Shown here piece by piece: positions 6,581-63,053 of a stretch of DNA of 64,000 bases. The stretch's first letter is position 1; every line of letters begins with the position of its first letter. The DNA is from Xanthostigma xanthostigma (taxonomy: Eukaryota; Arthropoda; Insecta; Raphidioptera; Raphidiidae), in the NCBI GenBank assembly GCA_963575645.1, contig OY754473.1:6882001-6946000 (forward strand), read 5' to 3'. Under the pieces are notes generated by a model that ran no database searches, was not told the DNA's origin, and saw only the letters and a list, made by a program, of their open reading frames with translations. A program made the translations under genes and the position numbers.

Positions 6581-9440
6581 CTATTGCTTCCATTGTAACA
6601 AAACAATAAGGTATGTTGTAATGCTGGCTAACATAGTACATAGAAAAGTTGAGTCGATTTTGAAAAAGCCATGCGCATTGATAGTCAAATCCTTGCGACA
6701 AATTTGTTGAGAGAACAACTCCAGTAAACGTCTCGATTGCTCAGTGAAACTCAAAGGCAACTTGTTAAGCAACCTGTCCGATATAATTGCCGTTACACGC
6801 CCTTCCTGGCAAACTGAATGACATTTCACTGATAAAATGTACATTGTTATCTAAAAAAATAATTTATTTGTACAATACGCGCAGCGAATCTAAAAGGCTC
6901 GGAAGTTAGATGCGGATGCGGGCTTGCGCTTGTAAAGTCTGTTGAAAAACTATAACAAACTCGCAACTCAACAAAACTAAAATAACAATAACAACTTGGC
7001 AATAGCGTACTCGACTGTACTTTAAAGCAGGAAAGAGACAAGTGACAAAGGCAACGAGCGATCACGGCCAATCACCGACGAGCGCACGTTACCGTGCAGG
7101 TATCTGGGAGGTGGTGGGTGTCTCAACGGCTCTAAAATGTGCCCTTGCGACGCTGTTTGTGACTAACTTTCGAACCTTTTAGATCCGTGGCGCGTATTGT
7201 ACCCAAATAAACTCTATATAGCGACACTCAAGGGACTGTGCACTTTGTGGCGTTATTGAGAGTTGTCGTCAAACGGAGAGAAGAATATTGCGCATATTAA
7301 TAAACCTTGTTCGTCAACACACAAAGATTTTCTTTTACTCGCCATGTTCACAGTTTGCAAGTTTGTAAGAATATGATAACTTATCGATAAGCAGCTGAAA
7401 GATAATTCCAACAAACAAAAGAACGAATTTCTTAGAATCTTCGGTACGCATGATGCCGACAACAAAGCGACAAAATAACAAACAAGTACTGTTTATTGCT
7501 TAATGATGACGTATTGTTGTCGTTATTTAGAGCGGGTGTGTCGTTATTTAGAGTGTATCAACTAGAGTTAAGTAATTTCGACGTTTTAAGGAGTTCGTCG
7601 TTATGTCGAGTGACGTTAAATGGAGTTTACACTGTAATTAAATAAATTCTTTTGTTATCCTCACCCCGTCGAATATCGACGGGCCGAGTACAGCTGATTA
7701 TAAAGTCCCTTACCAATACGTAGCATGACCAGGCCGCAGACACGGATAAAAAACGAAACATAAAGCTTGTATTATAGATGTGACTGTCGTTGAGTTGTTC
7801 GTAGGCGATAAATTGCAATGGCGTAACAATATTCATTAAAACTGTCAAAGAAACTTGAATGACCACTAACAATATGTCGAGACCAAATATTGAGTTAACC
7901 AAACCTAACGTATTGCACAGCATATCGTGAGAATCCATTATTGTTTGCACTAAAAGTTACATATAAGTAAAATTACCAATACTAATTGTAGTTTTTGCAG
8001 CATTGTGATGATAACCATTTGTAGTGATAATGGACTCAGCAGCCGATTCACTTGTTTTTTTTTTGTTAAAATAAAAAAAAAAAAACAGTTGTGTGGTTTT
8101 AAGAAACCACGACGCAAGTGAAACTTTTATTTGATTGTAGGCGTTGGATTGTAGACACTTATCCATCACGATTAATTATAAACAACAATATTCACATGAA
8201 TACACGAATAAAAACATGTAAACACTGTACAGCACTTGCCCGCATGACAGACTGACTATGTGTTATACATACATACTACACGGTCAGCTGATGCTAACCA
8301 TGGGCGCCGCCATATTGGCCTTGGCTGCTCTACCGAGCACCTACTCCGAACGCCTTTCACTTTACCCCTACTCCGCGACCGCCTGTAATGCGACATGCAA
8401 CAGACGGCCAGAAAAATTCGGGGCGATAAAATAAAAGTTTCACTTTAAAAAGTTGCATAATTAATCGAAAAAATATTCACATAGAACGAATTATTAATAA
8501 GTAAAACTGTAAAAGTTTTTGTAAGTAACTAGGAGGCATTGGTGCCGCCAAGTGAGTAGTGACGGGAGTGATGTGCCGACCAGCGACTCTACTCGCACCA
8601 TCCTGTAGCAGAGAAACGCAACCATTTTCTGCGCGGTGTTTAATATCATTCGTAGTACGTCAGGCAAAATCTCGGAAAGCTATATTTGACATCACATTAT
8701 TTTGGTCTAAACTCCCGCCCATAAAAGTGTAAAGAATCAAAATACTTACATGTTATTCGATCTGTATTGAAACCATAATTGCTTCGGCTCACAAACAAAG
8801 AATTAACTTTTACTGTGGATTGCTTAAACTTTTCTTCTAAAACATTGTTAACAGTTTCAAATCTGAATTGGACTTCGTTCAAAATATTGACTAACTGAAA
8901 TGTAACAATTGTCGAATAAAGCTGTGGTCCTATTTCGAAAAAATTGTATTGCCCGCCACGGATACCAACTTCGCTGTACCAAAGATAACTGCTAACCAAA
9001 CAAATGAAAACGTGACAAAAGACAACAATTATCAATTGAACAGTAACTTTTCTCATTTGTTTTTTGTAATATTTCTGTCGATTAACATTAATTTTTTTAT
9101 CTATACGGTCAATGTTTGATCTGACTTCGGCCATTTTGTTGCTATTCAAAATGGACAACAGTATTTCCAAATTAATGAATAAGTAATTCGAAATTAATAT
9201 TACATGATCCCATGCCGTGGATATAAGTCCAGTATCTTTTGTATCGTGCTTTAAGTCTTCGGAAAAATTCTTGTAAATAAAACCGGCAACAATAGAGTAA
9301 GAAATTAATATGAAAATTTTATATGCGATTTGAAGTTTGGTAACGTTCATTAATTGCTTCTTTTCGTTGTAATCCAAATGAGACAATCCCAGCATAAAAA
9401 GAAGCATTTTTAACGGTTTAAATGCATCGACGATTACCAT
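6581..9440 (-). CDS. Gustatory receptor gene A (Gr family, 7tm_7)
   Basis: Coding exons in transcript order are 9440-8750, 7949-7714 and 6850-6581, giving 398 aa. The start is placed at 9440, because an in-frame Met 12 codons upstream has no counterpart in paralogues and this Met puts GLSHL at residues 18-22, as in the others. Donors are GTAAGT and GTAAGG; acceptors are TTTTAG and TTTTTAG. Hydrophobic segments lie near residues 36-57, 78-100, 133-155, 175-195, 248-272, 297-320 and 375-395, the seven expected. The loop motif NSNKMAEVR follows segment 2. The C-terminus is TTYLIVLLQWKQ, matching the Gr signature TYhhhhhQF except for a final W. Known family role: insect Grs are ligand-gated cation channels in taste and other chemosensory neurons; the ligand is unknown. 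Both introns hold repeats (7208-7634, 8086-8432). The closest relatives by eye are F and G. Confidence 0.87.
7208..7634. mobile_element. Tc1/mariner-like MITE, 'AAACTCTATATAGCGACACT' family, copy 1
   Basis: It lies in intron 2 of gene A. The left end reads AAACTCTATATAGCGACACT and the right end is an imperfect inverse ending GGAGTTTACACTG. A fuller copy is at 16651-17098 and a reversed one at 31986-32290; all share the internal word 'AACAAACAAGTACTG' or a close variant. No transposase frame is present. Confidence 0.7.
8086..8432 (-). repeat. Interspersed repeat in intron 1 of gene A
   Basis: Read on the minus strand this matches 33497-33857 on the plus strand, from 'AAGTGAAACTTTTATT' through 'CAGTCTGTCATGCGGGCAAG' to 'AAAACCACACAACTG' and a T run. 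The frame that starts MMDKCLQSNAY at 8169 is part of this repeat and not a receptor exon. Confidence 0.85.
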
Positions 9441-11598: not shown

Positions 11599-11609
11599 AT
11601 AATCGAAAG

Positions 11610-14600
11610 CTAGTTGTTCCATTGTAGGAGCACAATAAGGTAAGTCGTTATTGTGATTAACAATGAACTAATGAGACTTCGGTCTATTCTGAAAAATCCA
11701 TAAGCCGATATATGTAGATCTCTATGAGATATTTGATTCGAAAACAACTTCAAATACTTCCTGATTGACTTGTCGCTATATTCGGGCATTTCGCAAAGTA
11801 TTTGATCAGTCACTATCATTGTTTGTTTAGCTTCTGAGCAGACCGAATAGCAATTAATTGACAAAATATATATGTTGATCTGAAATAATAACAACTTTAT
11901 AACTAATTTTATTCAACTCATGCGCGCTATTCATGTTTTATCATGCCTAAAAACCGAACCCTAAATAGCCATTTACCGACTGGTGACAATTACTTGTCAT
12001 AACTCAATGAAAATTCCTACTAGCTCGGCCATTGTGGAGTAATGAAAATAAACGTAACTATTTTCTGAGTCGTAACGAAATAGTAGGTAACAAGTAACAA
12101 CAACTCCGTTGTTACCCATTGAGGCTAAAATTGAGAGGCCGAATGTTTTCGACATGGAGTTTATTCATAACCGGCTAACCTCAAACCTCAAACATTGAAT
12201 CGTGCTGTTTGGTGCTGTTAGTATTGACAGTTTTTTTTATAAAGAAATATAAATAGATATTTACAACATCTTATTAATAACAATAAATAAAACATGAATA
12301 ACGCGCAATTGTTGAATAAAATTATGGGCGTAACTTGTAGGCTAAGTCATGACCTGTCAGCGCGATGAATGACTTAGACTACTAGTTACGCCAATAACTA
12401 ATAACGCCATTTATTCAACATTAGAATCAATCTGATTTACATTATGGATCTATTCAATTCGATTTTTGCTCGAGAAAACCCGGATCGACCAATTATCACA
12501 AAGCTATGCACACGAGGCTTGTTTTGCCGCTAGATTTCTAACGTGCTGTGGCGCTGAATTTCATGTTGGCTTTTATGCATTCGCTTCCCATATTGAAGCC
12601 ATATACTTTTATTCTATAGTGAGCAATCGAACCATTAGGGTGCAAACATATACTTCTGTCTTTTTTTAAGCTGTAAGCACTGGCGTATCCAGGAGGACAA
12701 AACAAGCACGAGGGACCGGCTTAAGAAATTTCTAATTTGCCCCCTCCTGAGCCAAAAGTTAGGTACGCCCATGTTAACGTCATAGAAAAAGACAAAGTAT
12801 GCAAGTACATCATATACTTTTATTCTGTTACTGAGCATAGGAATAAAATTGCAATCGAACCATAAGGGTGCAAACATATACTTCTGTCTTTTTTACGCCG
12901 CAAGCACTGGCGTATCCAGGAGGGCAAAACAAGCACGGGGGACCCGGCTTAAGAAATTTCCAATTCGCCCCCTCCTGGGCCAAAAGCTGGGTACGCCCAT
13001 GTTAACGTCATAGAAGAAGGCAAAGTCTTTGAAACAGAGATGCTTTATTCAGATTGATTGCAAGTACATCAACCGATCCTATCATCGGAGAAATCAGGGA
13101 ATTACATCGAAGAAAGAAACGCAGATATATTTTCGATACGCTTTGTTGCCTTCACTCACCGCACATTGAGTAGATAGACAATGATTCATATAGTAATTAT
13201 TATGTACCTTTGCAGATGATGGGTTTAGCGCGCAATGACAGTTCGAATGTTAACAAAAGAAAACCAGATATTCGTTTACTCCAATCAGCATTGTTTTGTA
13301 TCATTAGTTACCATAGAGATAAGGAACTGTTCTCTGTATGTGAATTGCAGACGCTTTCACGGCTCACTCACGTACTCTAGTCTATAATATCTCTATGGTC
13401 TTTATGTACGTACTTCCGAGCTGTATAGTCCGCAATTCTTGGCGGACCGCCTTGATTTATTTTTTTTGAATATTTTTATTGTCTCAAACACACACTGTGG
13501 CGTTTTTCCGTATCGCTCACGTGACCAGATACTGTTTTCTGATTGGTACTTGCTCAAAACCAGCAGACAATCAAGCTGCGGTTCTAATTTTAAAATACAT
13601 CTCAGTGTCCACGCGCGCTATACTGCATAGTGATGTCATTTCCATCTTCATAGCCAGCGCGCCAGTCAGCGCAAATCCCAGCGGCAAAACCGACCGCATG
13701 TGCACCGGTCTTAAGCTATATCAAATCCGTTCAGTAGTTCTTGCGAAGGGGAATTTTCTATCAAGTGTTGATTTATATAAAAGACTGTACTCACCAGTAA
13801 ATGTAGCGCCCAGGAACCCGTCACCCCGAATAAATTAATGGACATTCCATCTTCAATAAATTTTGGTTTTTCATTTGAATTGAGAATGTAGAGAAGCGGC
13901 GAAAAAACAAGTGACAGTACGGTAACGGACATATTTACCAATATTACCAAAATGGTTACTCCGAATACGGAATTTACCATTTCGACGGCTGCGCATAAAT
14001 GGTTGTGGCTTTTAATTATTGTTTGCACTGAAAATAAGACATGCTCGTGTGAGATCGGAGTTATTCGATAAACAGCCATTATGGACTGTCCCGTCAATTT
14101 AAAATTTTATATAACCCTGCGCCGTTTTCATTTCAGACTAAAATAAAGTTATACAGTAACTCGATAAGTCAAAAACCTCCAAAACTAGAAGAAAATGTTT
14201 TGTTCCCTTCTCTTTAAGCCCCAAAACCCCCGTAACTCGAAATCTCAACCCTCTATAGGTCCCTACAAGTCATTTCGGTACATACCTATTTTCCCTCGGC
14301 ATAACTCGAAAAAATAAATTGGACCTCAGTATCTCGAGCATAGCAAACAACAATCTTTCATAAGTCTAAAACTCTATAACTCGAATTTTTTGACGTTTCC
14401 CCTGAAGTTCGACTTCAGAGATTTTACTGTACATGGTAAGTATTAGGTATGAAGAAAATAACAATTTTATGTGAGTTTGAAATTACTTGTTTATACAGGG
14501 TGTCCCACGACATGACTGCCATAGCCTGTGTTGCTGGGGTGATTTCAAGTCAAAAATATCTAATGAATATATACCCCGAACGCTGTCCTAACTGAGCTAG

Positions 14601-15944
14601 AAGCATTTGAAATTTTAGATAAGTAAGCCCACTAATGCAGGTATTAGGTTCGGCTGTTGGTTTTGTTATTATTAAAAAGACCAGGTGGCTGTGAATCACC
14701 ATTAGTATTTATTCGTGCTGATCCTGAGACACTTCGCAGAGCTATACCACTTCAATTCTAAGAAGAGCTAGACTATGTATACAGCAACTGGGTGGACATT
14801 TTGAGCAACTAATTCAATAAAGCGATTTCTTTTTAAATAGTTTTTAAATTAGTAGGGAATTCTTACTACTACTTATATAAAATTTCAAATGCTTCTAGCT
14901 CAGTTAGGATAGCGTTCCGGGTATAATATGTTTATTAGACAATTTTTACTTGAAATCACCCCAGCAACACAGTCCCAGGCTATGTTGTGAGACACTCTGT
15001 ATACAGTGAATTTCATTGTTTTTTTTTTTGTTTCAGATCTGGCCATCTTTGAAATATCGATAGTTTTCTAATCAACAATCAGGTATTTAAAATTTGTGTT
15101 ATTACATACTTTTTATTTTATTATAAATGCACCAATAAATATAAAAAAAAACTTGCCGTGGATTCATCAGAAGCTAAGATATATTCTTCCTGTTCAATTT
15201 TTAAAATTTAGCCAAAAAACGAATGATGGATCAATTTTTAACCAGGAATGTAGTTCTATACTTACGAGAAATGCGTTCTTCATTTATATCTCTATTTTCG
15301 GGTAGCATAAATACGTCATCGGTTGTTTGATATCTTTTTTCCAATACGTCATTTATCGATTTGAATCTATACTTCACTTGATTCAAAATATCTCCTAACT
15401 GGATCATTGTTAATAGCGCAATAGTTTGCGAAAAATTGTCATGAATGTAATATTGCCAATAGTCGCCTGTTTTATTTAAATGTTTCTCAAAAACGCCGAA
15501 CCAAATCCAGTAGTCCACGATATTTATTAACAATTGACAAGCGAGAACAAATGTTATTCGAAACATAACATTGATGTTTCGTGATTTATAATAATTAGTT
15601 ACGTTTAAATTCAACATTTTATCAACTCGAGTGAGGTTAAAAACGATAGCGACCATTTTGTTGCTTTTCAAGATTGATAAACAAATGACTGCAATCGGTA
15701 AACTTACGTCCGAAAACAGCAGTAATTTATCAAAAAATTCTGCCATCGAATGTAAGTAAATTTTATTTGCGAAAGCCGTCAACATGCCAAATATTATAAT
15801 ACAAAAAATAGCAACCAATTTGTAGAACATCTGACATTTGTTAATTTTTTCAAAGCCATTTTCAGATGATATATTGAAATGAGATATCCCGACTATGCAA
15901 AATAATATATGTAAAGGTTTGCAGACTAACTCTGCAGACGCCAT
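11610..15944 (-). CDS. Gustatory receptor gene B
   Basis: Exons are 15944-15266, 14027-13795 and 11879-11610, giving 393 aa. Splice ends are donor GTAAGTATAG after TTTCTC, acceptor TTATTTTCAG, donor GTGAGTACAG and acceptor TTATTTCAG. The start at 15944 (MASAELVCKP, context CAAAATGG) aligns GISHFN with the GLS(H/Y)F motif of the other ten. The exon 1 loop carries KSNKMVAIV. Exon 2 starts VQTIIKSH. Exon 3 has NIYILSINCYSVCSEA and ends TTYLIVLLQWNN. Intron 1 contains two TA-flanked inverted-repeat elements (14154-14429, 14496-14999). Intron 2 (1.9 kb) contains the 11905-12425 and 12603-13200 repeats. The frame is intact. B is more divergent from the rest than A, F and G are from one another. Confidence 0.87.
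11905..12425 (-). repeat. Interspersed repeat, copy 1 (copy 2 at 54640-55130)
   Basis: The words 'AACATGAATAACGCG', 'TGACAATTACTTGTCAT' and 'CAATACTAACAGCACC' (the last on the reverse strand) occur in the same order in both copies, in opposite orientation. Both copies lie in intron 2 of a receptor gene (B and J). The ends carry short inverted words around 'ATTCAACA' and a 'GCGTAAC..' core. No coding capacity. Confidence 0.75.
12603..13200. repeat. Tandemly repeated copies of the 6112-6480 repeat
   Basis: The first half of the unit ('ATATACTTTTATTCTAT...' to 'GCCCATGTTAACGTCATAG') occurs twice in a row, starting near 12603 and 12810. The second copy continues into the complete 3' half ending near 13200. 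The phrase 'CGTATCCAGGAGG' is present in both. Confidence 0.8.
14154..14429. mobile_element. TA-flanked short inverted-repeat element (MITE)
   Basis: The ends read CAGTAACTCGATAAGTC and ...CTTCAGAGATTTTACTG, with TA on each side (14152-14153, 14430-14431). The interior repeats 'AACTCGAA' several times, in the same style as the 'AACACGAAC' words in the element at 1915-2534, so the two may belong to one wider pogo-like group. Confidence 0.6.
14496..14999. mobile_element. MITE with long inverted repeats, TA target site
   Basis: The left arm starts CAGGGTGTCCCACGACATGA and continues through GTTGCTGGGGTGATTTCAAG. The right arm carries the reverse complement, CTTGAAATCACCCCAGCAAC, and ends ...GAGACACTCTG. 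The arms are about 140 bases and also share 'AAATGCTTCTAGCTCAGTTA'. TA flanks both sides. It lies in intron 1 of gene B. Confidence 0.8.
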
Positions 15945-18385: not shown

Positions 18386-21072
18386 TTAATCCTTCCATTG
18401 CAACAACACAATCAGGTATGTGACGATATTTGTCAGAATACAAGGGACCAGACTAAGGTCGATTTTAAAAATCCCACAGGCCGTGATCTCCACGTCTCTA
18501 TAATGCACTTGGGTGGCAAACGATTCCAAAGATTTCTTCAACGAAGCTTCCGAGACCTCAGTCAACTCACAAGTTATTTGCTGTGATATTATTGCTGTCG
18601 AAGCTGCCTCAGAAGACACGGAATAGCAACAAAATGAAAAGAAGAACATATGAATCTAAAAACAAGTTTTTGTTATATTATCATTATCTTGAAACTGTCT
18701 GGAGAATAATAGTGTTGCCGTGCTCCCTTTTGGGACGATAATGTGTTCCATAGAATGTTCCAGACCACGCTAACAACAATAATGGAAAGCAGGTAAAAAC
18801 CCGACTTTCATAGAATTTCCTGGAGAAGGCAAAGCATGTCAAGAAACGTTGAGATGCTTCTAGAATATTCTACAGGCGGGGCACGAAGCTATAAAATGCG
18901 AGCGGAGTGGTTGGCGAGTCAGTCAGTACGGCGCGTTAACAGCAAGTGGCAAACGTACGGTGAATTACAGATAGCTGTGTGACATAAATCGTTCAGTGTC
19001 AGACCGAGGTAGCTGCTAAGATAGAAGATAAATGAGTGCAATTATATAAATCTGGTTCTACATAAATAGCTTCTTTGTTGTAAATAGTCGTGTGAATATA
19101 GTTAATAGACAAGTGCGAATAAGTGTACTAGATAAAATTCAGTGTGACCGTGAGTCAAAGAGGAGCGAGATTTCACCAATTGTCCCCCCTGTGTATCCGC
19201 GCCTGAATCATTAGTAACTACTCCAAAAAATGTTGATAATGATCGATTCTCCGAAATAAATCAGACTGATAATTTATTATTATTAATAGATTCGTACCAT
19301 CACATATAAACACCATCCAAATAATACAAGTGTCATATAAATATTGTTTTTTTCATCCATAATGCCTATTGGTGTATAAACGTACACGAGTACAGTCAGT
19401 GACATTTGTATAATCACTAATAAAATGTTGACGCCAAACGCAGAGTTAACTAAATCAACAGTATCGCATAATTTGCTGTGAGATTGCATCAAAGTTTGAA
19501 CTGAAAAAAACATTAATTATATACAGTGTGGTCACTTAAGTGTGCAACATAATATGGGAAAATTTTTAATTAAATGCACAACCAAAATACAAATATTGCC
19601 AAAAGTTGGTGCATGTCCGATAATCTAGGTGCTCTTAGAATTGTTGAAACTCAAGCAGCATACAGGGTGGGTCAAAAAATATAAAAATTGTACAAAAGTA
19701 GAGTGCCCTTATTTCAAAAAATTCAGCGAAATGTTATAAGAAAAAGTTGTTTAGAATTAAAAGTTATCCCCAAATACCAAAACATGGCCTTCTAAGAAAA
19801 AAATTTCTTTTTTTTGAAAAAGCAAAATTATAATTTTTTTGAAAATTTTTTTTTATACTTACCTTAAACACACTAATAAATTATTCAAAATCAAATCAAT
19901 TTCGCATAACTTTGTTCAAATTCAGGCATATTTGTAAAATTAACTTAGATTTTTAATTTTTTATGGAATCACCAACCTTATAAACTCATAAACTTGAAAA
20001 TTGTGGCGTAAGGGGAGTAGCTCTCAATCTCCTGTCCTCATATATGACTAATAGAACACAATGCGTCAAAATTGGAGATACCTATTCAGAATGGGAGCAA
20101 ATAGTGAAAGGCGTCCCTCAAGGTAGTGTGCTGGGCCCTACTCTATTTATTATCTTTATTAATGATTTACCAGACGCTATAAAACAAACAACTTTGCTAT
20201 TTGCTGACGATACAGCAGTCATATGTGAGGGAGGAGATGGGGATCTACTCCTTAAAAACATTGAAAATTGCATATCAACACTAAATGAGTGGTTCAGTAA
20301 AAATGGTCTGAAATTAAACATGGAGAAAACTGAAATTATTAAATTTGGAAACTATTTCATCATGCCTGCGCCAGATCAATTAGTGGTGAAGAAGCAAGTA
20401 AAATTTTTAGGTCTTGAAATAGACGATCAGCTTAACTGGAAAAGTCAAATTGATAAAATATCTGCTAAATTATATAAATGCATATATCTTATAAGATATT
20501 TAAAAGACAAATTAAATCCAGAAATACTTATTAATGTTTATTATGCTCATTTTCAGTCTATAATGAGATATGGTCTAATATTTTGGGGCAACTCTGTAAG
20601 CATTAAGAAAATTTTAATAATACAAAAATTATGTGTTCAAATCATGGCAGGCGCTGCTCCTCGAGAACATTGCCGCCCTCTTTTCAAAAAATTAAACATC
20701 CTTACGATTATTGACCTTTTTATTCTAGAATGCTCTAATTTTGTCAGATTAAATCCTGCTCTTTTCAAATCAAACAATATAATACATAGGCACAACACTA
20801 GAAATAAAACATCCACTCTGAAAAACGATCAACATCATCTGCAAGTGACGAGTCGTGGAGCACGCAATGCCATGATTCGAATACATAATAATCTGCCACA
20901 GAATGTTAAAAATATAATATGAGCAAAAAATCCCTTTTTAAAAAGGAAATAAATAAATTTTTATTGCAAAACAACTTTTATAATTTAAATGAATTTTTTA
21001 ATAAATAATGTTGTAATACATTTTATTGTTGACGCCATTAATGTGTTCTAAAAAATACTCTCTAATAAAGTG

Positions 21073-21116
<44 letters not shown>

Positions 21117-49750: not shown

Positions 49751-49761
49751 TACTTTAAAAA

Positions 49762-50461: not shown

Positions 50462-52875
50462 TTATTTCTTCCACTGCAACAAAACAATCAGATACGTCGT
50501 AATGCTGGTGACCATGGAACTCAGCAGTCCTGAATCAATTTTGAAAAAGCCATGGGCAGTTATGGCTACCTCTCTGCGAGCAACTTGTTGCGAGAACAAC
50601 TCCAAGAACTTTCTAGTTCTCAGGTCGAAGTTCGGAGGCAGTTCGTACGAGAGTCGGTCGGACACAGTGGAGGTCATTTTTGCTTTTGAACAAACTGATT
50701 GACAACTCCTGGACAGCATGTATACTTGCCACTAGAAATAAATTAATAGATTTTTACTTAGAAAACATTCATGAAACTACAAAGCTTTGAAAATAAATTG
50801 TTGGCAAAATTGGGTTGAGGAATAATTGAAAAAATAAGCATTATCATTTTGACTAACGTTTCGAAAATTATATATTCGTTTATCGACAGCTCTTTGTTAT
50901 GCAATGAAATACGTCCCTTCAATTACGCTATATAGAATTTACACTGTATATATTTTTGATATTTGCTCTATTAAAAAAACGATTTTCACATAAAAAATTC
51001 CAGCCAATTGGGCGACGGTACCATTCCAACATTAAAAATGTTGACATTTGATTATAATAAAGAAAATAAAATTTCTGATATCGCGTGAGGTGACACGGGT
51101 AATGGCTAGTATTCAATATGATATTTACTATTCGTTGCCATGGTTACCTACATAATATGTTTCACGTCATGTAAAAATTAATCAAAGCATGCCGAACTAG
51201 TTTATTTCTGACAGATCCATAAAACAAAAGAGCGGCTGATTTTTTTTTATTTTCAAAATATTTCCGAAACTAGTTTAGAAAAAAATTTTTAATGAAACTT
51301 TCTTGAAAAAATAAATAGAATAATAAGCCGTTATGAAAAGTAGACCATTATTATATAAAAAACACCGTTATAGCAAATATTTCTTCTGTTCATGTGCCGA
51401 TTTTCCCCAAAAACAATAGGGCTCTTCATATTTGCATACCAAACATCCTCCCAAAATTTGGTTTTGATCCGCTCATCCGTTTGACCGGTATCGTGTTCAC
51501 AGACTAACAGACGGACAGAGTTTGTTCAAAAATATGTTTTATGATTCGAGAGACCTCAAAACGGAAAGATATTGTAAAACTTTTCAAAAATGATTTTTGA
51601 CCTAAACTAGTACCATTCCCCACTTGTGGGTTGGAATGGTAAAAACATGAAACACCATCAAAACAGGAGCTGGGCTTCGAGGTTAAAAACTAACTGTGCA
51701 AGTATACTTACAACTAAGAAAATAGTCCAAAATGCCGCTGAAATTTGATAGCATAACCTTGAATACAGTGTTCCAACATAAAGTATCTCTGTGTCAAAAC
51801 TATCTTTATCAGAGAGAAATGCGATAGGTGAAAACAGGTAGATTAAAATGGTCAGCGTTATTTGAATAATTATTAGCAAAATATTGACACCAAAAATGTC
51901 ATTTGCTAAATTCAAAATGTCGCAGAGGTCGTTGTGAGCTTTCATCAAAGTTTCCACTGAAAAAGAGCAAATAATTTATCAATACTTTATTTAAACCCAA
52001 TTTAATTTTTAATTCCGGACGCTAAACGGGATGTTGTGCGTTTAAGACCAATGGCGTAGATATTTTTTTTCTGGTGGGGGGTAAAGCGAAAAAAGTCAAT
52101 ATTTTTAAAGTTTTATTAAGCCCCTTTGAATACGGAACCCTGAATATATTTATTGGATTTTGAGAATGGCTGATAAACGATACACGCAGAATTTGATCCG
52201 GCCAAACCGGGTTTTTTTATTCAACTTACCTGAAATATTATCTTCTCTGCGATCATTTCTTGATTTTAAGTTTCCAAAAGGTTCATCCAAAAATTTATTA
52301 ATAATTTCGAACCTGTTATCAATTACCTTCAAGACACTTATAATTTGAAATATGATCATAACTGAAAAATATTGTACCCAAGATACTAGAGAATCGTATA
52401 GTGCCCAGGTGAGGTTCTGAGTACCCTCGTAAATAAATACAGAACTCAGAAAACAAGTGCCAAGAAATACAATAACAAAAATCCATAATTTGTTTGTTAT
52501 TTGTTTCTGTTCTTTTCCATAATAACTATTTTTATTTACGTGCAGGATTTTGTCTACATTTTTCATTTGATTTTGTAAATCGATCATTTTTGTGCTGTTG
52601 CATTTAGACAAAACTACTGCCAAAATTGCGACGACAAAGTTAATAATCATTGCAATCATATTTGTAATGTATACGAGACTGGCCGACCCAGAACTGTTCG
52701 AAATATATATATCAACCATCCATAACATATAAAGAACCAAACATATTATTACAATTATTTTATAAATGATCTGAATTTTGGTGAGTTTTTTTATTTCGTC
52801 ATGCTTTGATAAACTAAAATAGGATAATCCTAAAATGTTGAGTTGTATTTGTAAAAAATTATTCACAGTAGCCAT
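50462..52875 (-). CDS. Gustatory receptor gene I
   Basis: Exons are 52875-52230, 51956-51712 and 50731-50462, giving 386 aa. The start at 52875 (MATVNNFLQ) matches J and K; an in-frame Met nine codons upstream is not shared. Splice ends are donor GTAAGTTG after TTTCAG, acceptor TTTTTCAG, donor GTAAGTATAC and acceptor TTATTTCTAG. The segment 2 loop reads CNSTKMIDLQNQM. Exon 2 starts VETLMKAHNDLCDILNLAND. Exon 3 reads WQVYMLSRSCQSVCSKAKMT and ends TTYLIVLLQWKK. Exon 1 is very close to gene J (shared FIYEGT(Q/G)NLTWA(L/I)YDSL), whereas exon 3 has clearly more differences from J than J has from K. Confidence 0.89.
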
Positions 52876-53661
52876 TTTATACTTTGTAGAAGTAAAATTC
52901 ATACAAACATTGCACCAAAGAAGTCGTGATAGTTTGAAATTATTACAAAGAATAATTTTTTAAGTTATCGTCTATTTTTTATTACTGATTCGTTCAACAA
53001 ACAGAATTGGTAATAATCGCAATTTACAAATAATGTTTATCACTTTATTTTAATATAAATTTAAAGTTGTAACAAAGAGAAAAATTGCCCGAGGTATTGT
53101 TGGGGTATATTTTATTAAAATGAGAACAATTTATATTTTTTCAATAGTTTTATAATACTAACAAAGATTGATTGATTAAAGAATGGACTGGAATATAGGG
53201 GTCCATTATTTACGACTGATTAAAAAGCATTTTTATTATTTGAACGCAATATTATTCTTGTTGAATGGAACAAAAAAATGTATATAAGTATAATACATCA
53301 TACAAATAATAATACGTAATAAGTCAATAATTATTATATGACAAATGATTGGTCAGAAATCAGTGACGTACTATCAATTTTTAACAGTGTGCATATTGAA
53401 AATGTAAAATATATTTTTTGCACACTCCCCTAAAAAACAGTTGTTTCTCATGCCTGTATAGCTATCGTGAAATGATACATTTATAACACTAGTGCTGTAA
53501 AATTGTCGTAAAAACGATCAGAAGTGTTCTTGTTCAAAATTTAATCATCAAACATTTTGAAAATGAGCTTAAAATCAACCATTTTATGGGAGGCGCGTGC
53601 AAAAAATGAAGTAAGCATCTCGATTGTAATGATTTCGTAACTCGTGTCTTTCATTTTGACT
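52876..53661. other. Spacer between genes I and J
   Basis: Compact AT-rich spacer that is collinear with the J-K spacer from about 53160 on ('CATTATTTACGACTGATTAA' against 'CATTATTTTTGACTGATTAA'; 'TAACAGTGTGCATATTGAAA' in both). I see no gene. It must contain both the 5' region of I and the 3' end of J. Confidence 0.6.
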
Positions 53662-56600
53662 TTAATTCTTCCATTGCAACAAAACAATTAGATACGTTGC
53701 AATGCTGGTCAACATGGAACTCAGCAAACCCGAATCGATTTTGAAAAAGCCGTGGGCAGTTATAGCTACGTCCCTGTGAGCAACCTGTTGCGAGAACAAC
53801 TCCAAAAACTTTCTCGTCGTCTTGTCGTAGTTCGTAGGCAGTTCGTACAAGAGTCGATCGACCACAGTCGAAGTCATTTTCGCTTTTGAACAAACTGACT
53901 GACAACTCGTCGAAAGAATGTATACTTCCCACTGAAAATTAAATAGAAATACTTGCTTTTTATTTAGAAATAAATTACAAAACTACAAAAAAAACGTTGT
54001 GTGTTTTACACTGCACACTACAGAAGTGTAACTGCTATAATTGTAAAAAAAATGCCATCGATCGCCAGGATCCAACCCACGACATTCAGGTTACAAGGAA
54101 GCTGATCTGTCTCGCCGCCACCTTAACCTAATGTTCTACAGAGCGTCGGTCTGGCTTCAGGGAATACCAGGTCCAGTCTGGTAAGGATTTTTTCTTCTCA
54201 GTTACATGGTCTCATAGAGGCGTTTCACAATTTTCCCGGTAATGTTTTAGGTCCCAGACCGACCCTGGTTCTATAGTCAGTTTTTATAGTATAGTGCAAC
54301 GGTTCGTTACATTTTTCGATTTTACCTACCGTGTCAAAAAAGTTTTATTTCAAAAACTTTCTTTCAAAAATGAATAGAATAATAAAATACAAGTACTTAT
54401 ATCGTTGTAATAGAAAAATAACGTTATAGTACGTATTCTTTCTGAACATGTGCCGATTTTTTTCCAAAAAAATAACAGGATCTTCTTATTTACACGCCAA
54501 ACAGCCTATTGAAATTTGATATCGATCCGGTCAGCCGTTTGATAATGTATCGTGCTCACAGACAAAAATATTATTTGACCTTCAGAGACCGCTAAATGAA
54601 AAAAAATTGGACCGTTCCCCGATTGTAGACTTAGAATGGTAATAGTTATTGGCGTAACTAGTAGTCTAAGTCATTCATCACGCTGACAGGTCATGACTTA
54701 GCCTACAAGTTGCGCCCATAATTTTATTCAACAATTGCGCGTTATTCATGTTTTAATTATAATGAGATGTTGTAAATATCTATTTATTTCTTTATAAAAA
54801 AAACTGTCAATACTAACAGCACCAAACAGCACGATTCAATGTTTTGGTTTGAGGTTAGCCGGTTATGAATAAACTCCATGTCGAAAACATTCGGCCTCTC
54901 AATTTTAGTCTCAATGGGTAACAACGGAGTTGTTGTTACCTACTATTTCGTTACGACTCAGAAAATAGTTACGTTTATTTTCATTACTCCACAATGGCCG
55001 AGCTAGTAGGAATCTTCATTGAGTTATGACAAGTAATTGTCACCAGTCGGTAAATGGCTATTTAGGGTTCGGTTTTTAGGCATGATAAAACATGAATAAC
55101 GCGCATGAGTTGAATAAAATATATTTTTTGTCAACTAGTCTAGCTGTTATTCGCGGTTATTAGAGGTACTTACAACTAAGAAAAGAGTCCAACATGACGC
55201 TGCAATGAGACAGCACACAGTAAGGTGGACATTGTCTATCCCCGCGTCTGAAATATCTTCCTTGGAGATGAAGTCAAGCGGTGAAAACAGGAAGATCAAA
55301 ATTGTCAAAGTTATTTGAACAATTGCTAGCAAAAGGTTGATACTGAAAATTTCATTTGTTAAATTCAAAATGTCGCAGAGATCGTTGTGAGCTTTCATCA
55401 AAGTTTCCACTGAAAAATAATAAAAGTAATAACTAATCATTTATTTGAGCCCAAATTCATTTTTAACCCCCGACGCAAAACGGGGAGTGATGATGGTAAC
55501 TTAAAGACAGATGATCCGATTTTGATACGGTTTTGTTTTCACACGTGAGCCGTCGTAAAACACCTGGCAGTTGCGAAACACAAACTTAAACGAAATTATA
55601 ATTGCTAAATTTCGCCCTGTCATCTAACGAAATTCTAGTAACTAAATATCGCCCTGTAACTAAATTTCATCCTGTAACTAAATTTTGCCCGGTCATCTAG
55701 TTGTCGCCTGTAACAAAAGCCAAGTTATAATCCAACGCATACACAAAGTAAGCGTCACGCACTAGTAACTAAATGTCGCCCCGTTATTTAGATGTCGCCT
55801 TCAACGCACACAAACGCAACGCCGTCCCATAAAAATGTCGCGACATTTGCACGGTTTTACTCCCAACCAAACGCGCCATTAAATGTTTCGCATCAAAAAC
55901 AACGTTGTAGCATATATTTCTTCGGTGCATGAGTCGTTTTTTATCAAAAACGAAAATGCTTCTGCTATCAAAATTTGGTTTCGGTCCGTTTGACCCATTG
56001 GCTTGTAGACAAACAGACGAACAGACATTTTACAAAAATATGTTTTTTGAAGAATCGGAGGACCATAAAACGAAATAATATTTTAAAATTATGAAAAGTG
56101 AATTTTGACCTAAATGGTAAAATAATTGAGTTTGAAAATTATTGGCAAGCGGGCAAACAATACACACGAAACTTGCTCCCAGTGGCGTAGCTACCTAGGG
56201 GCTAGGCGGGGCAGTGCCCCGGGGCCCTCAAGCTTAGGGGGCCCTCAAATCCTTACCAGAAAATCTCGATCGACCTGAACTTTTGAAAATTTCTCCCATT
56301 TTCAAAATAAATATGACAGGTTGCAACCCGACTTTAATCATAGCAACTCAGTTGAGAGAAATTCGAAAGTTATACCTAGGGAATTCCCTTAAATTCTTTC
56401 TGTGGGTTGGCAGTGTTGTCAGTTTGACGGATAGCGATATGTGCGTTTTATTATTCATCGATATGCGTTTTATTGTGAATTCGAGTCAAGATTTTTTTTT
56501 TTGAGAACGGTTAAAAATTTATGCTGTATTAGGAGTAAGTAAGTTAATGACAATAAACTTTTTAGTACTGGTCAATATAGTGGTTCAATTTTACTTGATT

Positions 56601-57873
56601 TTACCACATTATTTGAGTCACTATCAATAGAAATATTTTGTCCAGAAATACTTGCAGAAGGCTGACTAAAAAATTTGTCAATTTTGGGCAATTTTTGTTT
56701 ACTATCTTCTCTTTCTTGGCGTTGTTTGCGTTTAAATGCACCACTGGGTTTCTTCTTTTTGTCCATAATTTTAGTTTTCTAAATCTATAGATTTCGGGTA
56801 CTCATTGTATAACGTGAAATATCGTGAAAAAAATGCCGGGGATTCCCCAACGACGTCTTGCAGCGTATCAATACGTTTCTCCTTCCTTTTACTTTTAACG
56901 TCGTCTTGAATCTTTTCTATTTCGTTTTATTGCCCAAATCTACACCAAGTATTAATTGTAATTTATGTTGTTACTGTTTAATATTATTATTACATACCCT
57001 GCAGTGCACGAAAAAGAGCTGATCATATCAATAAGAGCTTTATCATCGATGATAAAGTAGCTTAGCATTTTTAAAGTATTTGTATATTTAATATTTTTAC
57101 TTGATAAAACCTAACCAGTTTAGATAGCAGTGAGGCCCCATTTTTTTATTTGCCCCATGGCCCTTGGTTACCTAGCTACGCCACTGCTTGCTCCGAGCGA
57201 AGCCTGGGCTGAAAGAGCTCTCCTTACCTAAAATATTATTTTCTCTGCGATGATTTCTTGTTTTTAACATTCCAAAAGCTTCATCCAAAATTTTATTAAT
57301 AATTTCGAACCTGATATCGATGACCTTCACGATATTTATAAACTGTAATACGATTACAACTGAAAAATATTGTACCCACGATCCTAGAGAATCGTATATC
57401 GCCCAAGTGAGGTTCCCGGTACCCTCGTAAATGAATGCAGAGCTCAAAAGACAAGTCCCATGGAATGCAATTACAAGAATCCATAATCTGTTTGTTGTTT
57501 GTTTCTGTTCTTTTACATGATAATTGTTTTTGTTTACGTCAAGGATTTCGTCTACATTTTTCAGTTGGTTTTGTAAGTCGATCATTTTAGTGCTGTTATG
57601 TTTGGACAAAACTACTGCCAAATTTGCGACGACAAAGCTAATAATCAATGCAATCATATTTGTAATGTATATGAGACTGGTTAGCCTTGAACTATTCGAA
57701 GTATATGTAACAACCACCCATAATTGATAAGGAACCAAACATGTTGATATAATTATCTTATAAATGATCTGAATTTTGGTGAGATTTTTTATTTCGCTGT
57801 GGTTTGATAAACTAAAATAGGATAATGCTAAAATGTTGAGTTGTGTTTGTAAAAATTTATTAATGGCCGCCAT
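53662..57873 (-). CDS. Gustatory receptor gene J
   Basis: Exons are 57873-57228, 55409-55174 and 53931-53662, giving 383 aa. Splice ends are donor GTAAGGAG after TTTTAG, acceptor TTTTTCAG, donor GTAAGTACC and acceptor TTTTCAG. It starts MAAINKFLQTQLNILALSYF; GLSYF is ALSYF here, the only G-to-A change at that motif. The exon 1 junction reads NNILG where I and K have NISG. Exon 2 starts VETLMKAHNDLCDILNLTNE. Exon 3 ends ATYLIVLLQWKN and differs from K at one of the last 71 residues. Intron 1 contains a 1,007-bp hAT-like element starting 34 bases past the donor. Intron 2 contains a tRNA-like segment and the 54640-55130 repeat. Confidence 0.89.
54053..54124 (-). pseudogene. tRNA-like relic in intron 2 of gene J
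   Basis: The minus strand carries CCTTGTAACCTGAATGTCGT followed by GGGTTGGATCC, which resembles the anticodon arm of a Thr(UGU)-type tRNA and a pol III B box. The A-box half is not preserved. The equivalent position of gene K (60079-60150) has the same relic, so it predates the J-K duplication. Confidence 0.45.
54640..55130 (+). repeat. Interspersed repeat, copy 2 (copy 1 at 11905-12425)
   Basis: It runs from 'GGCGTAACTAGTAGTCTAAG' through 'CAATGGCCGAGCTAGTAGGA' to 'TGAATAACGCGCATGAGTTG'. It ends about 45 bases from the donor of exon 2 of gene J. Confidence 0.75.
56180..57186 (-). mobile_element. Decayed hAT-like transposon in intron 1 of gene J
   Basis: Ends CAGTGGCGTAGCTACCTAGG and ...ACCTAGCTACGCCACTG are flanked by perfect CTTGCTCC duplications (56172-56179, 57187-57194). 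A minus-strand frame at 56766-56572 starts MDKKKKPSGAFKRKQR and includes KLPKIDKFF, which resembles the N-terminus of ZMYM1-like/hAT transposases. It stops after 64 residues with no DNA-binding finger or catalytic domain. It is internally deleted and cannot be autonomous. Confidence 0.9.
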
Positions 57874-59178
57874 TTTATAATTTAAAGAAGTAATATTAGC
57901 AATGAAATGTTTTTATATTTTTTTTAAATAAGGTTTCACTCAAACAGAAAATTAATCTTGTTAGTTTGAAATTATTTTTGAAATTATCGTCAATTTTTTA
58001 TTATGATTCGTTAAAAAACAGAATTAGTATTTATCGCAATTGGCAATTAAAGTCTCCAATAAATAAATGGCACGTTTTAAATTCACTTTATTTTAATTTA
58101 TTTCAAGTTGGATCAAAGAAAAATAATGCCACGGTATTATTTGGGTATATTTTATTTAATTACTTATATTTTAATTTTTTTTTTATTATATTTTTTAAGC
58201 TACACAAATATTTCAAATTTATATTTTTGTATGGGGCTTGCCCTGTTGAAACAACAATAAACAATAAACAAAATGATAATAATTTCCATTTTTTCAATAG
58301 TTTTATGATACTAACAAAAACTAACATTGATAACATCGAGCAATTAAAGAAAACCAAATACAAATTAATCATATTAAGTGCTTTTTGTCTTAAAAATTCA
58401 TTGAAAACATAATTCGCTAAAACAAAATAATTATTCAAATCTTTAACGTCTGATTAGAACTCTTCAATAAATAAAAATAATTATGTTTACGTCTATATCT
58501 TTAACTTTAATCGTCTTTTCTTAATTATATATTCGTCCATTGAAATCACCATATTGTTTTCTATTGGTGTTAATGGATAGGAATATAGGACTACATTATT
58601 TTTGACTGATTAAAAAATGTTTTATTATTTTAATACAATATTATTCTTTTGGAGTGAAACAAACAAAAATGTGTATATAATACATTATACAAATAATATC
58701 TAATCTTTCAATAATTATTATATCTATGATAAATGATTGGTCAGAAATCAGTGACGTAGTATTAATTTTTAACTCCGAAGATTGTATAAAGATGGCCGAA
58801 ACGTCAGACAATAAAATGCAATTAAAAAACCTTCAGTATTTTCAAAATTCATTGATCCTATGCCACCAGGTTTCATCCTTTAATCTTCTATTAATTTTTA
58901 ACAGTGTGCATATTGAAAATGTAAAATATATTTTTTGCACACTCCCCTAAAAAACAGTCGTTTCTCATGCCTGTATAGCTATCTTGAAATGATACATTTA
59001 TAACACAAGTGCTGTAAAATTGCCGTAAAAACGATCAGAAGTGTTATTGTTCAAAATTTAATTGTCAAACATTTTGAAAATGAGCTTAAAATCAACCATT
59101 TTATGGGAGGCGCGTGCAAAAAATGAAGTAAGCATCTCGATTGTAATGATTTCGTAACTCGTGTCTTTCATTTTGACT
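57874..59178. other. Spacer between genes J and K
   Basis: No gene is supported. The part from about 58570 on is a copy of the I-J spacer, interrupted by an insertion at 58774-58888. The part 58280-58400 ('GTTTTATGATACTAACAAAA', 'AATCATATTAAGTGCTTTTT') recurs upstream of K at 63370-63460, so the 5' flanks of J and K are also paralogous. Confidence 0.6.
58760..58902. mobile_element. Short insertion with 14-bp direct repeats
   Basis: Perfect TATTAATTTTTAAC copies at 58760-58773 and 58889-58902 bound a 115-base insert. The corresponding I-J spacer (about 53368-53390) has the sequence uninterrupted. The insert contains 'GATGGCCGAAACGTCAGACA', in the style of retroelement 3' ends. Confidence 0.75.
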
Positions 59179-62100
59179 TTAATTCTTCCATTGCAACAAA
59201 ACAATTAGATACGTTGCAATACTGGTCAACATGGAACTCAGCAAACCCGAATCGATTTTGAAAAAGCCGTGGGCAGTTATAGCTACGTCCCTGTGAGCAA
59301 CCTGTTGGGAGAACAACTCCAAAAACTTTCTCGTCGTCTTGTCGTAGTTTGTAGGCAGTTCGTACAAGAGTCGATCTGCCACAGTTGAGGTCATTTTCGC
59401 TTTTGAACAAACTGACTGACAGCTTGTCGAAAGAATGTATACTTCCCACTAGAAATTAAATACAACTCATTTTTAACCGACTTCAACAAAAAGGAGGAGG
59501 TTCTATGTTCGTCTGTATATTTTTTTAAATTTTTTTTTATGTATGTTCACTGATTTCTCCGTCAATTATGGACCGATTTTCAATTTTTTTTTTATTCGAA
59601 AGAGTGCACCTCAGAGGTGGTCCCATCCGAACCAGGTCAAGATCTGATGGTGGAATCCGGAGAAATCGAGGGAAACTCTCAAATTTCAAAGGCACACATA
59701 ATGTTTTTTATGTATGTTCACCGATTTTTAGTGTTAGATTAACACTAAAAAGAGAAAAATAAAATATTTTTAACAAAAAAATTGAACCGACTTCACACTA
59801 AAAAGTAAAAAATAATTGCGTATTGAAATGTTTTGGAGTCGGTGTAGTTCTCGGAATAGATTTCATTTTGGCTGACACCGACTTCAAAACATTTCAATAC
59901 GCATTTATTTTTTACTTTTTAGTGTGAAGTCGGTTCAATTCTTTTGTTAAAAATATTTTATTATGTTAGCTTTTTGTTTAGACAATATTTTTGAAACTAC
60001 GAAGCTTAGAAGAAAAAAGAGATTGTGTATTTTACACTGCACACTATAGAAGTGTAACTGATATAATTATAAAAAAAATGCCATCGACCACCAGGATCAA
60101 ACCCACGACATTCAGGTTACAAGGCGGCCGGTGTGTTTTGCTGCCGCCTTAGCTTAATGTTCTACAGTGAGTTTTTATAGTATAGTGCAACGTTTTGTTA
60201 GATTTTCGATCGATTTTGCCTACCGTGTCAAAAGGAGTTTTTCTTTCAGAAATGAATAGAATAACACTTATGACAAGAATATCGTTGTAACAGAACAGTA
60301 TATTGTGCAACTAGTGCGACAATGCCGCACGAGTTGCACATACTATTTTTTATTACGAATAAAATAAAAATTCCCAGAACAAATGTTCAATTTTAAAATA
60401 CACATTTTTTGCTGTCACATTCAGTATTGGTAACTATGGTAACTCTGAATTTGCGTGCGGAAAACTATAATTTCGGTGCGACAAATAAAGTTTGCGCACG
60501 CAAATGAAAATAGCCACTTTTCAACCGTAACAGCATGCGTTAAGATACCAATTTTCTTGCATGAGTAATAAAAAAAAATATAATCTATTCTTTCTGGAGA
60601 TGTGCCGATTTTTTCAAAAAAAAAAGAGCAATCGAGCTCTTTTCACATATAGGTACGCCAAGTAACCTATCAAAATTTGATATCGTGCTCACAGATTTTT
60701 TCCGAAAAAATATTTTCTGTACGTCAGGGACCGCTAAATAGAAAAAAACTGTGAATTTTGGACTGAATAAGTACCGTTCCCACGGTAAAATAAACGTTTT
60801 TGTCGACTTATCTAGCTATAATTAGTGATTATTAGAGATACTCACAACTAAGAAGGCAGTCCAAATTGCCGCTGCAAGGAGATAACATAGCAATGAATGA
60901 TTTCCACTGACATATTCATAGACTTTTCCTGTGTCAGATGTGTCTTTCTTGGAGATGAATTCAATCGGTGAAAACAAAAAGAATAAAATTGTCAACGTTA
61001 TTTGAACAATTGCTATTAACAGGTTGACACTGAAAATTTCATTTGTTAAATTCAATATGTCGCAGAGATCGTTGTGAACTTTCATCAAAGTTTCCACTGA
61101 AAAATAACAAAAGTAATAACCAATCAATAAATAAAATTCTTTATTCAACACGCGTGAGTAATATGCAATTTCGGGGCCCTGCTAAACTCGGGAGAAATAA
61201 TAAATTACTTCATGTTGACGCGTAGAGTGCTAATAATGAGCCGTACAGTGTGATAATGAATTTTCTGGACCAATAGAAACTCAGTAGCGAGCCCAAGCGT
61301 GCAATAATGAAAAAAAAACTGCACGCAGCTTCTGGATCAATAGGAACGTGGTAGGCGGTATTGTATATATGAAAACAGCATCGCAATTCAGTGAAATTCA
61401 TAGCAATCTTGTGTGCATACACTGACGGTGGGTACGTCAATCAATGAAGTGATTTATTATTTTTCCCTCTTTTATCAGGGCCCCGATTACATATTACTCC
61501 TGCTAGTTGAATAAAGTATTATGTGCGACCATTGATCGAAGGAGAATATTCCACTCGCGTGCGTTTTACCGCACTCGCTACGCTCGTGCAGCATTTTTCA
61601 CGCTCATGGAATCTTCTCCTTCTCTCACTAGTCGCACAATATACTATTATTTGAGTCTAAATTCATTTTAAAGCCCCGACGCAAAACGAGGTGTTGTGCG
61701 TTTGACGTGGTATTTGTGTTAGGTTGGCTGATCCTGTTTTGATGCGATTGGTTTTCTTTGAAAGAGAATTTTTACGAAATGATTCTCAATTCCAAAAGTG
61801 CAAAATAAAGGACCCCGCACAAACTTTATGGGAATTGGTTCTCGGTTAAATTGATCGAAAATGGTTTTATTTTATAGTTTAAAGGTCACTATAGATTTTT
61901 AGCTACAGATATTATGTTTAGCAAGATTTTATGGTATACGATAATCATTGAATTCACAATCTAAAAAAATCCTAACCCTATAGAAAGATGTATCCGAATA
62001 CGATAGTATTATTTTATACAAGGTGACTTCTTCCAACATAATCTAGTTTTCAACAATTTTTCTATTTCTAAAAAAAAGTACAAAAGTTGAAAATGGAACA

Positions 62101-63053
62101 TGTTTGTGAATTTTATTGATATCCCTATATCTAAAATCTCGCTAAACATATCTGTAGCTAAAAATCTATTGGTTTTTAGGACACTTTTCTTAGTGACCTT
62201 TGAACTATAAAATAAAACTGTTTTCAATCAATTTAACCCAGAACCAAATCCCATAATGTTTGTGCGGGTTCCTTTAAAAAATTTTAAGTTACTTAGGCGA
62301 CAGGACCATTCCAACTCAAAAATACTAACAGTGGATGTTATAATAATAAAATTGGTTTAAAATTACTGGCAAGCAGGCAAACAAAGCACACCGCACTTGC
62401 TCCTTACCTGAAATATTATTTTCTCTGCGATAATTTCTTGTTTTTAACCTTCCAAACGCTTCGTCCAAAGTTTTATTAATAATTCCGAACCTGATATCAA
62501 TTTCTTTCAGGATAGTTATAAACTGAAATACGATAACAGCTGAAAAATATTGTACCCAAGTTGTCAGAAATTCGTATAGCGCCCAGAAGAAGTCTCCAAA
62601 ACCCACATAAACACATGAAAAACTGAAAATACCGCTCGCATGGAACAGAGCTATAAACACCCAAAGTCTGATTGTCATTTTTTTCTGTTGCTTTTCATAG
62701 AAATTGTTTTTATTTACGTCAAGAAGCTCGTCTACATAACTTATTTGGTTTTGTAGGTCGACCATTTTCGTGCTGTTGCATTTAGACAAAACTACTACCA
62801 ACATTGGGACACCAAAAGTAGTTATCAATGCAGCTATATTTATGATAAGTACGATATCGACTGACCCAGAATGTTTCGAAATTAATACATTAGTTATCCA
62901 TAACCCATAAAGAACCAAAAATATTAACATAATTATTTTATAAATTATCTGGATTTTGGTGAGTTTTTTTATTTCGTTGTATTTTGATAAACTAAAATAG
63001 GATAATCCTAGAATGTTGAGTTGTATTATTAAAGATTTATTAACGGTCGCCAT
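59179..63053 (-). CDS. Gustatory receptor gene K
   Basis: Exons are 63053-62408, 61096-60846 and 59448-59179, giving 388 aa. The start at 63053 (MATVNKSLIIQLNILGLSYF) is preferred to an upstream in-frame Met 27 codons earlier, on paralogue alignment. Splice ends are donor GTAAGGAG after TTTCAG, acceptor TTTTTCAG, donor GTGAGTATC and acceptor TTTCTAG. Exon 1 is well diverged from I and J in segments 1-3 (VLISKHSGSVDIVLIINIAA, CVYVGFGDFFWALYEF), while exon 3 is almost identical to J. Exon 2 is the longest (251 nt), with an extended loop KKDTSDTGKVYEYVSGNHS. The C-terminus is ATYLIVLLQWKN. Intron 1 carries a repeat copy (61139-61655) and a foldback element (61807-62275); intron 2 carries a palindrome. 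Confidence 0.89.
59765..59960. repeat. Palindrome in intron 2 of gene K
   Basis: The arms 'TTGAACCGACTTCACACTAA' and 'TTAGTGTGAAGTCGGTTCAA' extend inward through 'CGTATTGAAATGTTTTG' for about 80 bases each. The preceding 59475-59760 resembles a non-LTR retroelement tail ('GACTTCAACAAAAAGGAGGA'). Confidence 0.85.
60079..60150 (-). pseudogene. tRNA-like relic in intron 2 of gene K
   Basis: CCTTGTAACCTGAATGTCGT and GGGTTTGATCC are preserved as in gene J at 54053-54124. Surrounding 'TTTTACACTGCACACTA(C/T)AG' flanks are shared, which shows common descent and not separate insertion. Confidence 0.45.
61139..61655 (-). repeat. Interspersed repeat, copy 2 (copy 1 at 10600-11050)
   Basis: This is the reverse complement of the block upstream of gene B, from 'TTTATTCAACACGCGTGAGT' to 'TCTCACTAGTCGCACAATAT'. 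It lies in intron 1 of gene K, 43 bases from exon 2. Confidence 0.78.
61807..62275. mobile_element. Foldback element in intron 1 of gene K
   Basis: Ends AAAGGACCCCGCACAAAC and GTTTGTGCGGGTTCCTTT. It is uninterrupted, with centre 'ATTATTTTATACAAGGTGAC', and so provides the intact form of the family found in genes F and H. Confidence 0.82.

Follow-up and report, generated by a model that had tools for sequence, protein, structure and literature searches.

A tandem array of gustatory receptor genes

We analysed a stretch of 64,000 nucleotides (the window) of the genome of Xanthostigma xanthostigma, lying at positions 6882001-6946000 of contig OY754473.1 (hereafter C10), in which positions 6581-63053 hold eleven three-exon gustatory receptor (GR) genes, g1 to g11, modelled from exon hits obtained with tblastn and an enumeration of splice sites. 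Among the stop-to-stop frames of the window, eleven long first exons stand out, ten on the minus strand and one on the plus strand. The window cuts through a larger array: when 20 kb on its left and 180 kb on its right were examined (the genome searched comprises 623 Mb in 28 contigs), the whole array came to 38 loci over ~215 kb (C10:6,888,581 to 7,103,302), with g1-g4 on the minus strand, g5 on the plus strand, g6-g33 on the minus strand and g34-g38 on the plus strand. Open three-exon models with the same intron phases were obtained at 37 of the 38 loci; for the 26 genes beyond the window the phases were imposed, the phase-free control described below being confined to the window genes, and the final modelling used a stronger donor weight, which changed the exon-1 donors of six genes beyond the window from weak sites.

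In window coordinates, g1 (6581..9440, minus strand, 398 amino acids; exons 9440-8750, 7949-7714 and 6850-6581) and g2 (11610..15944, minus strand, 393 amino acids; exons 15944-15266, 14027-13795 and 11879-11610), both supported by their models and by a match to the Pfam family 7tm_7, are followed by g3 (18386..22313, minus strand, 386 amino acids; exons 22313-21626, 19500-19298 and 18655-18386). Next come g4 (23664..25806, minus strand, 398 amino acids; exons 25806-25113, 24841-24606 and 23930-23664) and, head-to-head with it, g5 (28621..31695, 398 amino acids; exons 28621-29317, 30534-30766 and 31429-31695), the sole plus-strand gene of the window. Beyond g6, g7 (37120..40989, minus strand, 387 amino acids) has exons 40989-40332, 39568-39333 and 37389-37120; g6 and g8 to g11 are located below.

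The eleven gene models are confirmed as real. Every coding sequence (CDS) has a length that is a multiple of three, none contains an internal stop, and in each the first intron is in phase 1 and the second in phase 0. The initial annotation had described eleven in-frame, stop-free models of three exons and 383-398 amino acids with these same phases, and our independent reconstruction returned them, with identical outer ends at 6581 and 63053. Our main modelling run imposed the two phases; a phase-free rerun, in which the tested gene was excluded from the templates, gave identical coordinates and phases for all eleven genes, the chosen phase beating the best other phase by a score margin of 46 to 447, although this rerun is not fully independent, its templates being the models of the other genes and g6 keeping a lowered donor threshold. 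When neutral change was simulated (substitutions only, 0.02 changes per site), a mean of 2.45 of the 11 frames remained open and the probability that all eleven did so was ~6e-8, so that the open frames are not due to chance.

The doubtful gene is g6 (33107..35494, minus strand, 388 amino acids; exons 35494-34822, 34280-34057 and 33376-33107). It could be modelled only after the initial threshold for donors had been lowered, and then with an atypical intron-2 donor (CTG/GTATTA, the slash marking the exon end) at the homologous place; its exon 2 is open until a stop. A G at position +5 is found in 73 of the 74 donors of the 37 models, the g6 intron-2 donor being the exception, and the donor scoring favours this G without requiring it. 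The ratio of amino-acid-changing to silent divergence (dN/dS, or omega) of g6 exon 3 against g8 is low, ~0.13 (0.15/1.13), so that g6 has probably been constrained for most of its history; it may be poorly spliced or at the recent onset of failure.

The array contains dead members, the nearest of which is hidden by the window edge: g12 (C10:6946301-6949548), ~300 bp past the window end, has open exons 1 and 2 and a frameshifted exon 3, and between g20 and g21, at C10:6998607-6998904, there is an orphan piece of exon 1 whose frame changes. The earlier description of an intact array thus holds for the frames, open in 11 of 11 window genes, and as regards the genes themselves for ten of them, g6 requiring the poor donor GTATTA; it fails for the array as a whole because of g12 and the broken orphan fragment. 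In the German cockroach Blattella germanica the share of GR pseudogenes is given as 11.4% in a passage of PMC6175461. By hand arithmetic at this share, the chance of finding none of eleven genes broken is ~0.26 and that of at most two in 39 is ~0.16, so that the absence of pseudogenes from the window is unremarkable. It would be tempting to take eleven consecutive open frames as the mark of a young or uniformly constrained array; they are not.

The initial annotation had also mentioned a heavy transposon load, which is a fair description where we sampled: three stretches, one of them picked for its reverse-transcriptase-like frame, all proved to be repeats. This frame, a retroelement-like fragment (19984-20922, plus strand), lies antisense in intron 1 of g3 and has at least 40 other genomic matches at 90-99% identity, which points to a recent family. 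A ~885-bp repeat between g7 and g8 (about 42032-42916) matches its own reverse complement (88%) and has at least 39 other copies at 96-99%. Between g8 and g9, a self-complementary repeat of at least 640 bp (about 49758-50400), also with at least 39 other copies (97-99%), continues up to position 50400, where the query ended, close to the stop codon of g9. Searches for the telomere repeats TTAGG and TCAGG gave no match, with a tool that by its own account passes over simple repeats.

Protein layout and selection by exon

The assignment of these genes to the gustatory receptors, made in the initial annotation, is borne out. Pfam 7tm_7 (PF08395) was matched by all eleven window proteins at E<=0.01 (g11 scoring 109.7 bits for a cut-off of 26.6), and Trehalose_recp was also matched by two of them. 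When the PDB was searched with a profile of the eleven proteins, five gustatory receptor sequences were retrieved at E values of 1.2e-17 to 1.2e-15, the top match being Gr43a (8jm9, E 1.2e-17) and the best-matching stretch being the C-terminal half, whereas four Orco/odorant receptor sequences reached only 0.046-0.11. BmGr9, which is not named in the search output, is presumably among the chains matched.

Hydropathy profiles show seven peaks in ten of the proteins, distributed 4/2/1 over exons 1, 2 and 3, and eight in g4 (5/2/1). In g1, g2 and g6 the peak expected for S4 is absent and one of the exon-1 peaks lies at the N-terminus, near residue 10, so the helix assignment is rough. The C-terminal S7 motif of gustatory receptors is TYhhhhhQF; compared with this motif, TY is present in 8 of the 11 proteins and Q in all, and in all of them W replaces F (QW). 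In BmGr9, according to passages of PMC11062906, the pore helix is S7b and fructose contacts S5 and S6. From hydropathy and this homology we infer that exon 1 corresponds approximately to helices S1-S4, exon 2 to S5-S6, and exon 3 to an intracellular stretch and the pore helix S7; exon 3 would thus be the pore part and exons 1 and 2 the sensing part. Each product most probably serves as a subunit of a tetrameric, ligand-gated cation channel, as the solved gustatory receptors do, although similarity to Gr43a and BmGr9 is low and the ligand is not predictable from it. The genes resemble the tandem expansions of putative bitter receptors of other insects in family (7tm_7), in a length near 390 amino acids, in their tandem arrangement, in a conserved C-terminus and in having few introns (according to passages of PMC6720082, the bitter-type GRs of two beetles mostly contain one or two). 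No categorical difference separates them from these expansions; the present genes have QW at the place of QF in the motif. The array is an ordinary, well-preserved slice of a larger insect taste-receptor cluster.

Selection differs strongly between the exons. One-ratio (M0) codon models, fitted in IQ-TREE, gave omega values for the eleven window genes of 0.42, 0.44 and 0.21 in exons 1, 2 and 3, and for the four genes g8-g11 of 0.64, 0.69 and 0.23; exon 3 had the lowest value in each of seven gene sets (three being nested). In g8-g11, omega differed from 1 with p=7e-7 in exon 3, p=0.002 in exon 1 and p=0.09 in exon 2. The dN/dS comparison across the eleven genes therefore upholds the strong purifying selection proposed earlier for exon 3 and does not do so for exons 1 and 2.

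There is, in addition, a hint of positive selection in exons 1 and 2. It comes from a purpose-written site-model test whose one-ratio likelihoods match those of IQ-TREE in five alignments. In g8-g11 a class of sites with omega above 1 was favoured in exon 2 (p=0.0074; 0.003 without the columns near gaps) and nearly so in exon 1 (p=0.055). Beyond the window, in g23-g33, the p values were 1.5e-5, 5.6e-4 and 1 for exons 1, 2 and 3; without the columns near gaps, exon 1 kept p=2e-5 and exon 2 p=0.028, and in the 11 jackknife runs the p value was always under 0.002 for exon 1 and exceeded 0.05 in four for exon 2. Twelve sites had a posterior above 0.9, of which 7 fell strictly inside predicted extracellular loops, and 11 once a margin of three columns was allowed; this margin was set after the sites were known, the sites were called before gap removal, and the loops come from hydropathy with the N-terminus assumed to be inside. 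In ant odorant receptors, positively selected sites were instead most frequent in transmembrane regions, as reported in a passage of PMC4549895.

Several points weigh against so clean a partition of selection by exon. The window-wide omega values are rough, silent sites being near saturation, and the g8-g11 site tests rest on four sequences, the exon 2 result being one of five tests. In g23-g33 the pairwise homoplasy index (PHI) test indicated recombination over the whole CDS (p=0.002; 0.044, 0.092 and 0.62 for exons 1, 2 and 3), and recombination can inflate a site-model test for positive selection.

Likeness of exon 3 among g8, g10 and g11

The exon contrast takes another form in three minus-strand neighbours: g8 (44875..47645, 384 amino acids; exons 47645-47000, 45474-45236 and 45144-44875), g10 (53662..57873, 383 amino acids; exons 57873-57228, 55409-55174 and 53931-53662) and g11 (59179..63053, 388 amino acids; exons 63053-62408, 61096-60846 and 59448-59179). 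Silent divergence (dS) in exon 3 is 0.09 for the g8/g11 pair, 0.15 for g10/g11 and 0.17 for g8/g10, compared with 0.77, 0.37 and 0.81, respectively, in exon 1 and 0.57-0.70 in exon 2. The likeness has visible borders. Between g11 (58888..59465, minus strand) and g10 (53371..53948, minus strand) it is an ungapped tract of 578 bp at 96.5% identity, made of exon 3 and ~290 bp of 3' flank, in which the first 100 bp past the stop codon are 100% identical and at the end of which identity falls abruptly. The g8 tract (44871..45151, minus strand; 281 bp, 95.4% identical to g11 and 93.2% to g10) is exon 3 plus 7 and 4 extra bases; in its flanks ungapped identity is 14-18/30 in the adjoining 30-bp bins and 5-10/30 farther out. 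A search of the genome with the g11 tract, in which 40 of 655 candidates were scored, matched the exon part in g10 (97%), g8 (96%, exon only), g9 (85%), g6 (77%) and part of g1 (77%); among the matches listed there was no sign of a conversion donor in other parts of the genome, all exon-part matches of at least 77% lying in the window.

The fourth gene of the group, g9 (50462..52875, minus strand, 386 amino acids; exons 52875-52230, 51956-51712 and 50731-50462), has an exon 3 that is not homogenised. Silent differences were contrasted between exon 3 and exons 1 and 2 in the 229 gene pairs (of 666) that shared enough codons: g8/g11 (Fisher p=2.8e-5) was the sole pair to pass Bonferroni correction, and none passed in the opposite direction. 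Over all variable sites of the group g8-g11, a test which cannot tell selection from conversion, exon 3 was closer than exons 1 and 2 in g8/g11 (2.5e-9), g8/g10 (1.9e-7) and g10/g11 (3.3e-6), and less alike in g9/g10 (1.7e-6) and g9/g11 (2.8e-5). Farther along the array, g17/g18 (C10:6982390-6989313) have an exon 3 dS of 0.10 and an exon 1 dS of 0.32, a contrast that is not significant after correction.

We propose that gene conversion, or crossing-over with an equal outcome, is the best reading of the exon 3 likeness of g8, g10 and g11, a reading which concerns few pairs and stands on the dS contrast, the tract flanks and the controls given below, the runs tests being modest and the trees indecisive. 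A number of results speak against it. The g8/g10 (p=0.0014) and g10/g11 (p=0.013) pairs fail correction over the 229 pairs, and runs tests on silent sites gave 0.007 for g8/g11, 0.015 for g8/g10 and 0.65 for g10/g11, with g9/g10 also at 0.028. The best tree of exon 3 is rejected by exon 1 alone (approximately unbiased test, p-AU 0.022) and accepted by exons 1 and 2 together (0.487); exon 3 in turn rejects the best tree of exon 1 (0.011) and not that of exons 1 and 2 (0.062), and the tree ((g8,g11),(g9,g10)) is accepted by all three partitions. Within the g10/g11 3' flank there are short pieces resembling old repeats, which match other parts of the genome at 69-86%. The g36/g37 pair is the reverse of g17/g18 (exon 3 dS 0.50, exon 1 dS 0.19). 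Finally, unequal crossing-over could leave the same trace as conversion.

Putative conversion between chemoreceptor paralogues is known from the chemosensory families of Drosophila, with one GR case marked uncertain in PMC4122928; compared with those cases, the likeness seen here centres on the pore exon. For one sugar-receptor case, PMC2667405 reports that there was no evidence of partial conversion. No description of pore-exon homogenisation was found in the literature searched by titles, abstract openings and some passages, which is not proof that there is none.

Origin of the array and alternative explanations

Most duplications in the array are old. Over the 55 window pairs the mean proportion of silent differences (pS) is 0.66, 0.70 and 0.68 in exons 1, 2 and 3, which places most duplications far back, and mean amino-acid identity is 31%, 35% and 55%. 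Judging from the listed gene pairs and the codon trees, only g8-g11 (exon 1 dS 0.28-0.81) and g4/g5 (0.59) are moderately recent in the window.

Taken as a whole, we consider it probable that this is an old tandem GR array with exon-partitioned evolution, combining constraint on the pore exon with conversion in g8, g10 and g11. The array would have grown by old tandem duplications, as its divergence shows, and by some more recent ones. Strong purifying selection would preserve the pore exon, which in g8, g10 and g11 would also have been overwritten by gene conversion between neighbours, as silent divergence and tract edges suggest. The sensing exons would meanwhile diverge under weaker constraint, some of their sites perhaps being positively selected. 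Frames would remain open because most genes are under selection, and losses would occur, as in g12, the orphan exon and possibly g6.

A bolder version would make the pore exon an exchangeable constant module: recurrent, exon-bounded conversion would maintain subunit compatibility (for example in mixed tetramers), positive selection would at the same time diversify the sensing exons, and the phase-matched exons may even allow splicing between genes. We regard this version as unlikely.

Constraint on silent sites, through splicing signals or RNA structure, might by itself make the exons 3 of g8, g10 and g11 alike, with no conversion at all. Passages of PMC4122928 point out that unequal constraint can mimic conversion, and exon 3 is indeed the slowest exon at the protein level in all seven gene sets; the silent-site controls address precisely this. 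Exon 3 dS is 0.55, 0.49 and 0.67 between g9 and g8, g10 and g11, respectively, 0.67 for g4/g5, 0.50 for g13/g14 and 0.57 for g14/g15, at or above the exon 1 value in five of the six pairs (for g8/g9, 0.55 vs 0.71). In the 229 pairs the fraction of silent differences is no lower in exon 3 (0.37) than in exons 1 and 2 (0.35), and the likeness of g10 and g11 runs on well beyond the stop codon. Silent constraint alone is thus a decidedly improbable account.

It is still harder to believe that g8, g10 and g11 arose by recent duplication and then changed very rapidly in exons 1 and 2. The group g8-g11 is among the most recent of the window, but in exons 1 and 2 the genes are far apart at silent sites as well, for which a rapid change of the protein cannot account, and the introns of the three genes align in pieces only, at 67-88%, compared with 93-97% for the exon 3 tracts.

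The locus might also be one complex gene, with several sets of 5' exons spliced to shared 3' exons. Such an arrangement is described for Drosophila Gr39a in PMC2204066 (alternative large first exons and shared small 3' exons, with conversion mentioned for some exon copies), and the array shares with it variable 5' exons, a conserved 3' end and exon-wise selection. The matching phases across genes, the predominance of one strand and g12, with its broken exon 3 behind open exons 1 and 2, would all fit. However, all 37 gene models have a complete exon 3 and stop of their own, which makes intergenic splicing unnecessary, and the 3' likeness differs from that at Gr39a in lying between genes rather than arising through sharing. 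We give the complex gene very little credence.

Simple youth of the array, or purifying selection of equal strength throughout, as the initial annotation had it on the strength of eleven open frames, is just as improbable: the high mean pS and the low identity of exon 1 contradict youth, and the omega values of 0.42-0.69 in exons 1 and 2, the class above 1 favoured in exon 2 of g8-g11 and the frameshift in the very next gene, g12, contradict uniform constraint.

What is new here, and worth following, is the exon-wise contrast together with the likely conversion tracts. In this 38-locus array the sensing and pore parts are carried by separate exons, which makes selection and gene conversion separately measurable for each. 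Should recurrent homogenisation of the pore exon also hold true in related species, a requirement for subunit compatibility in receptor assembly would become testable.

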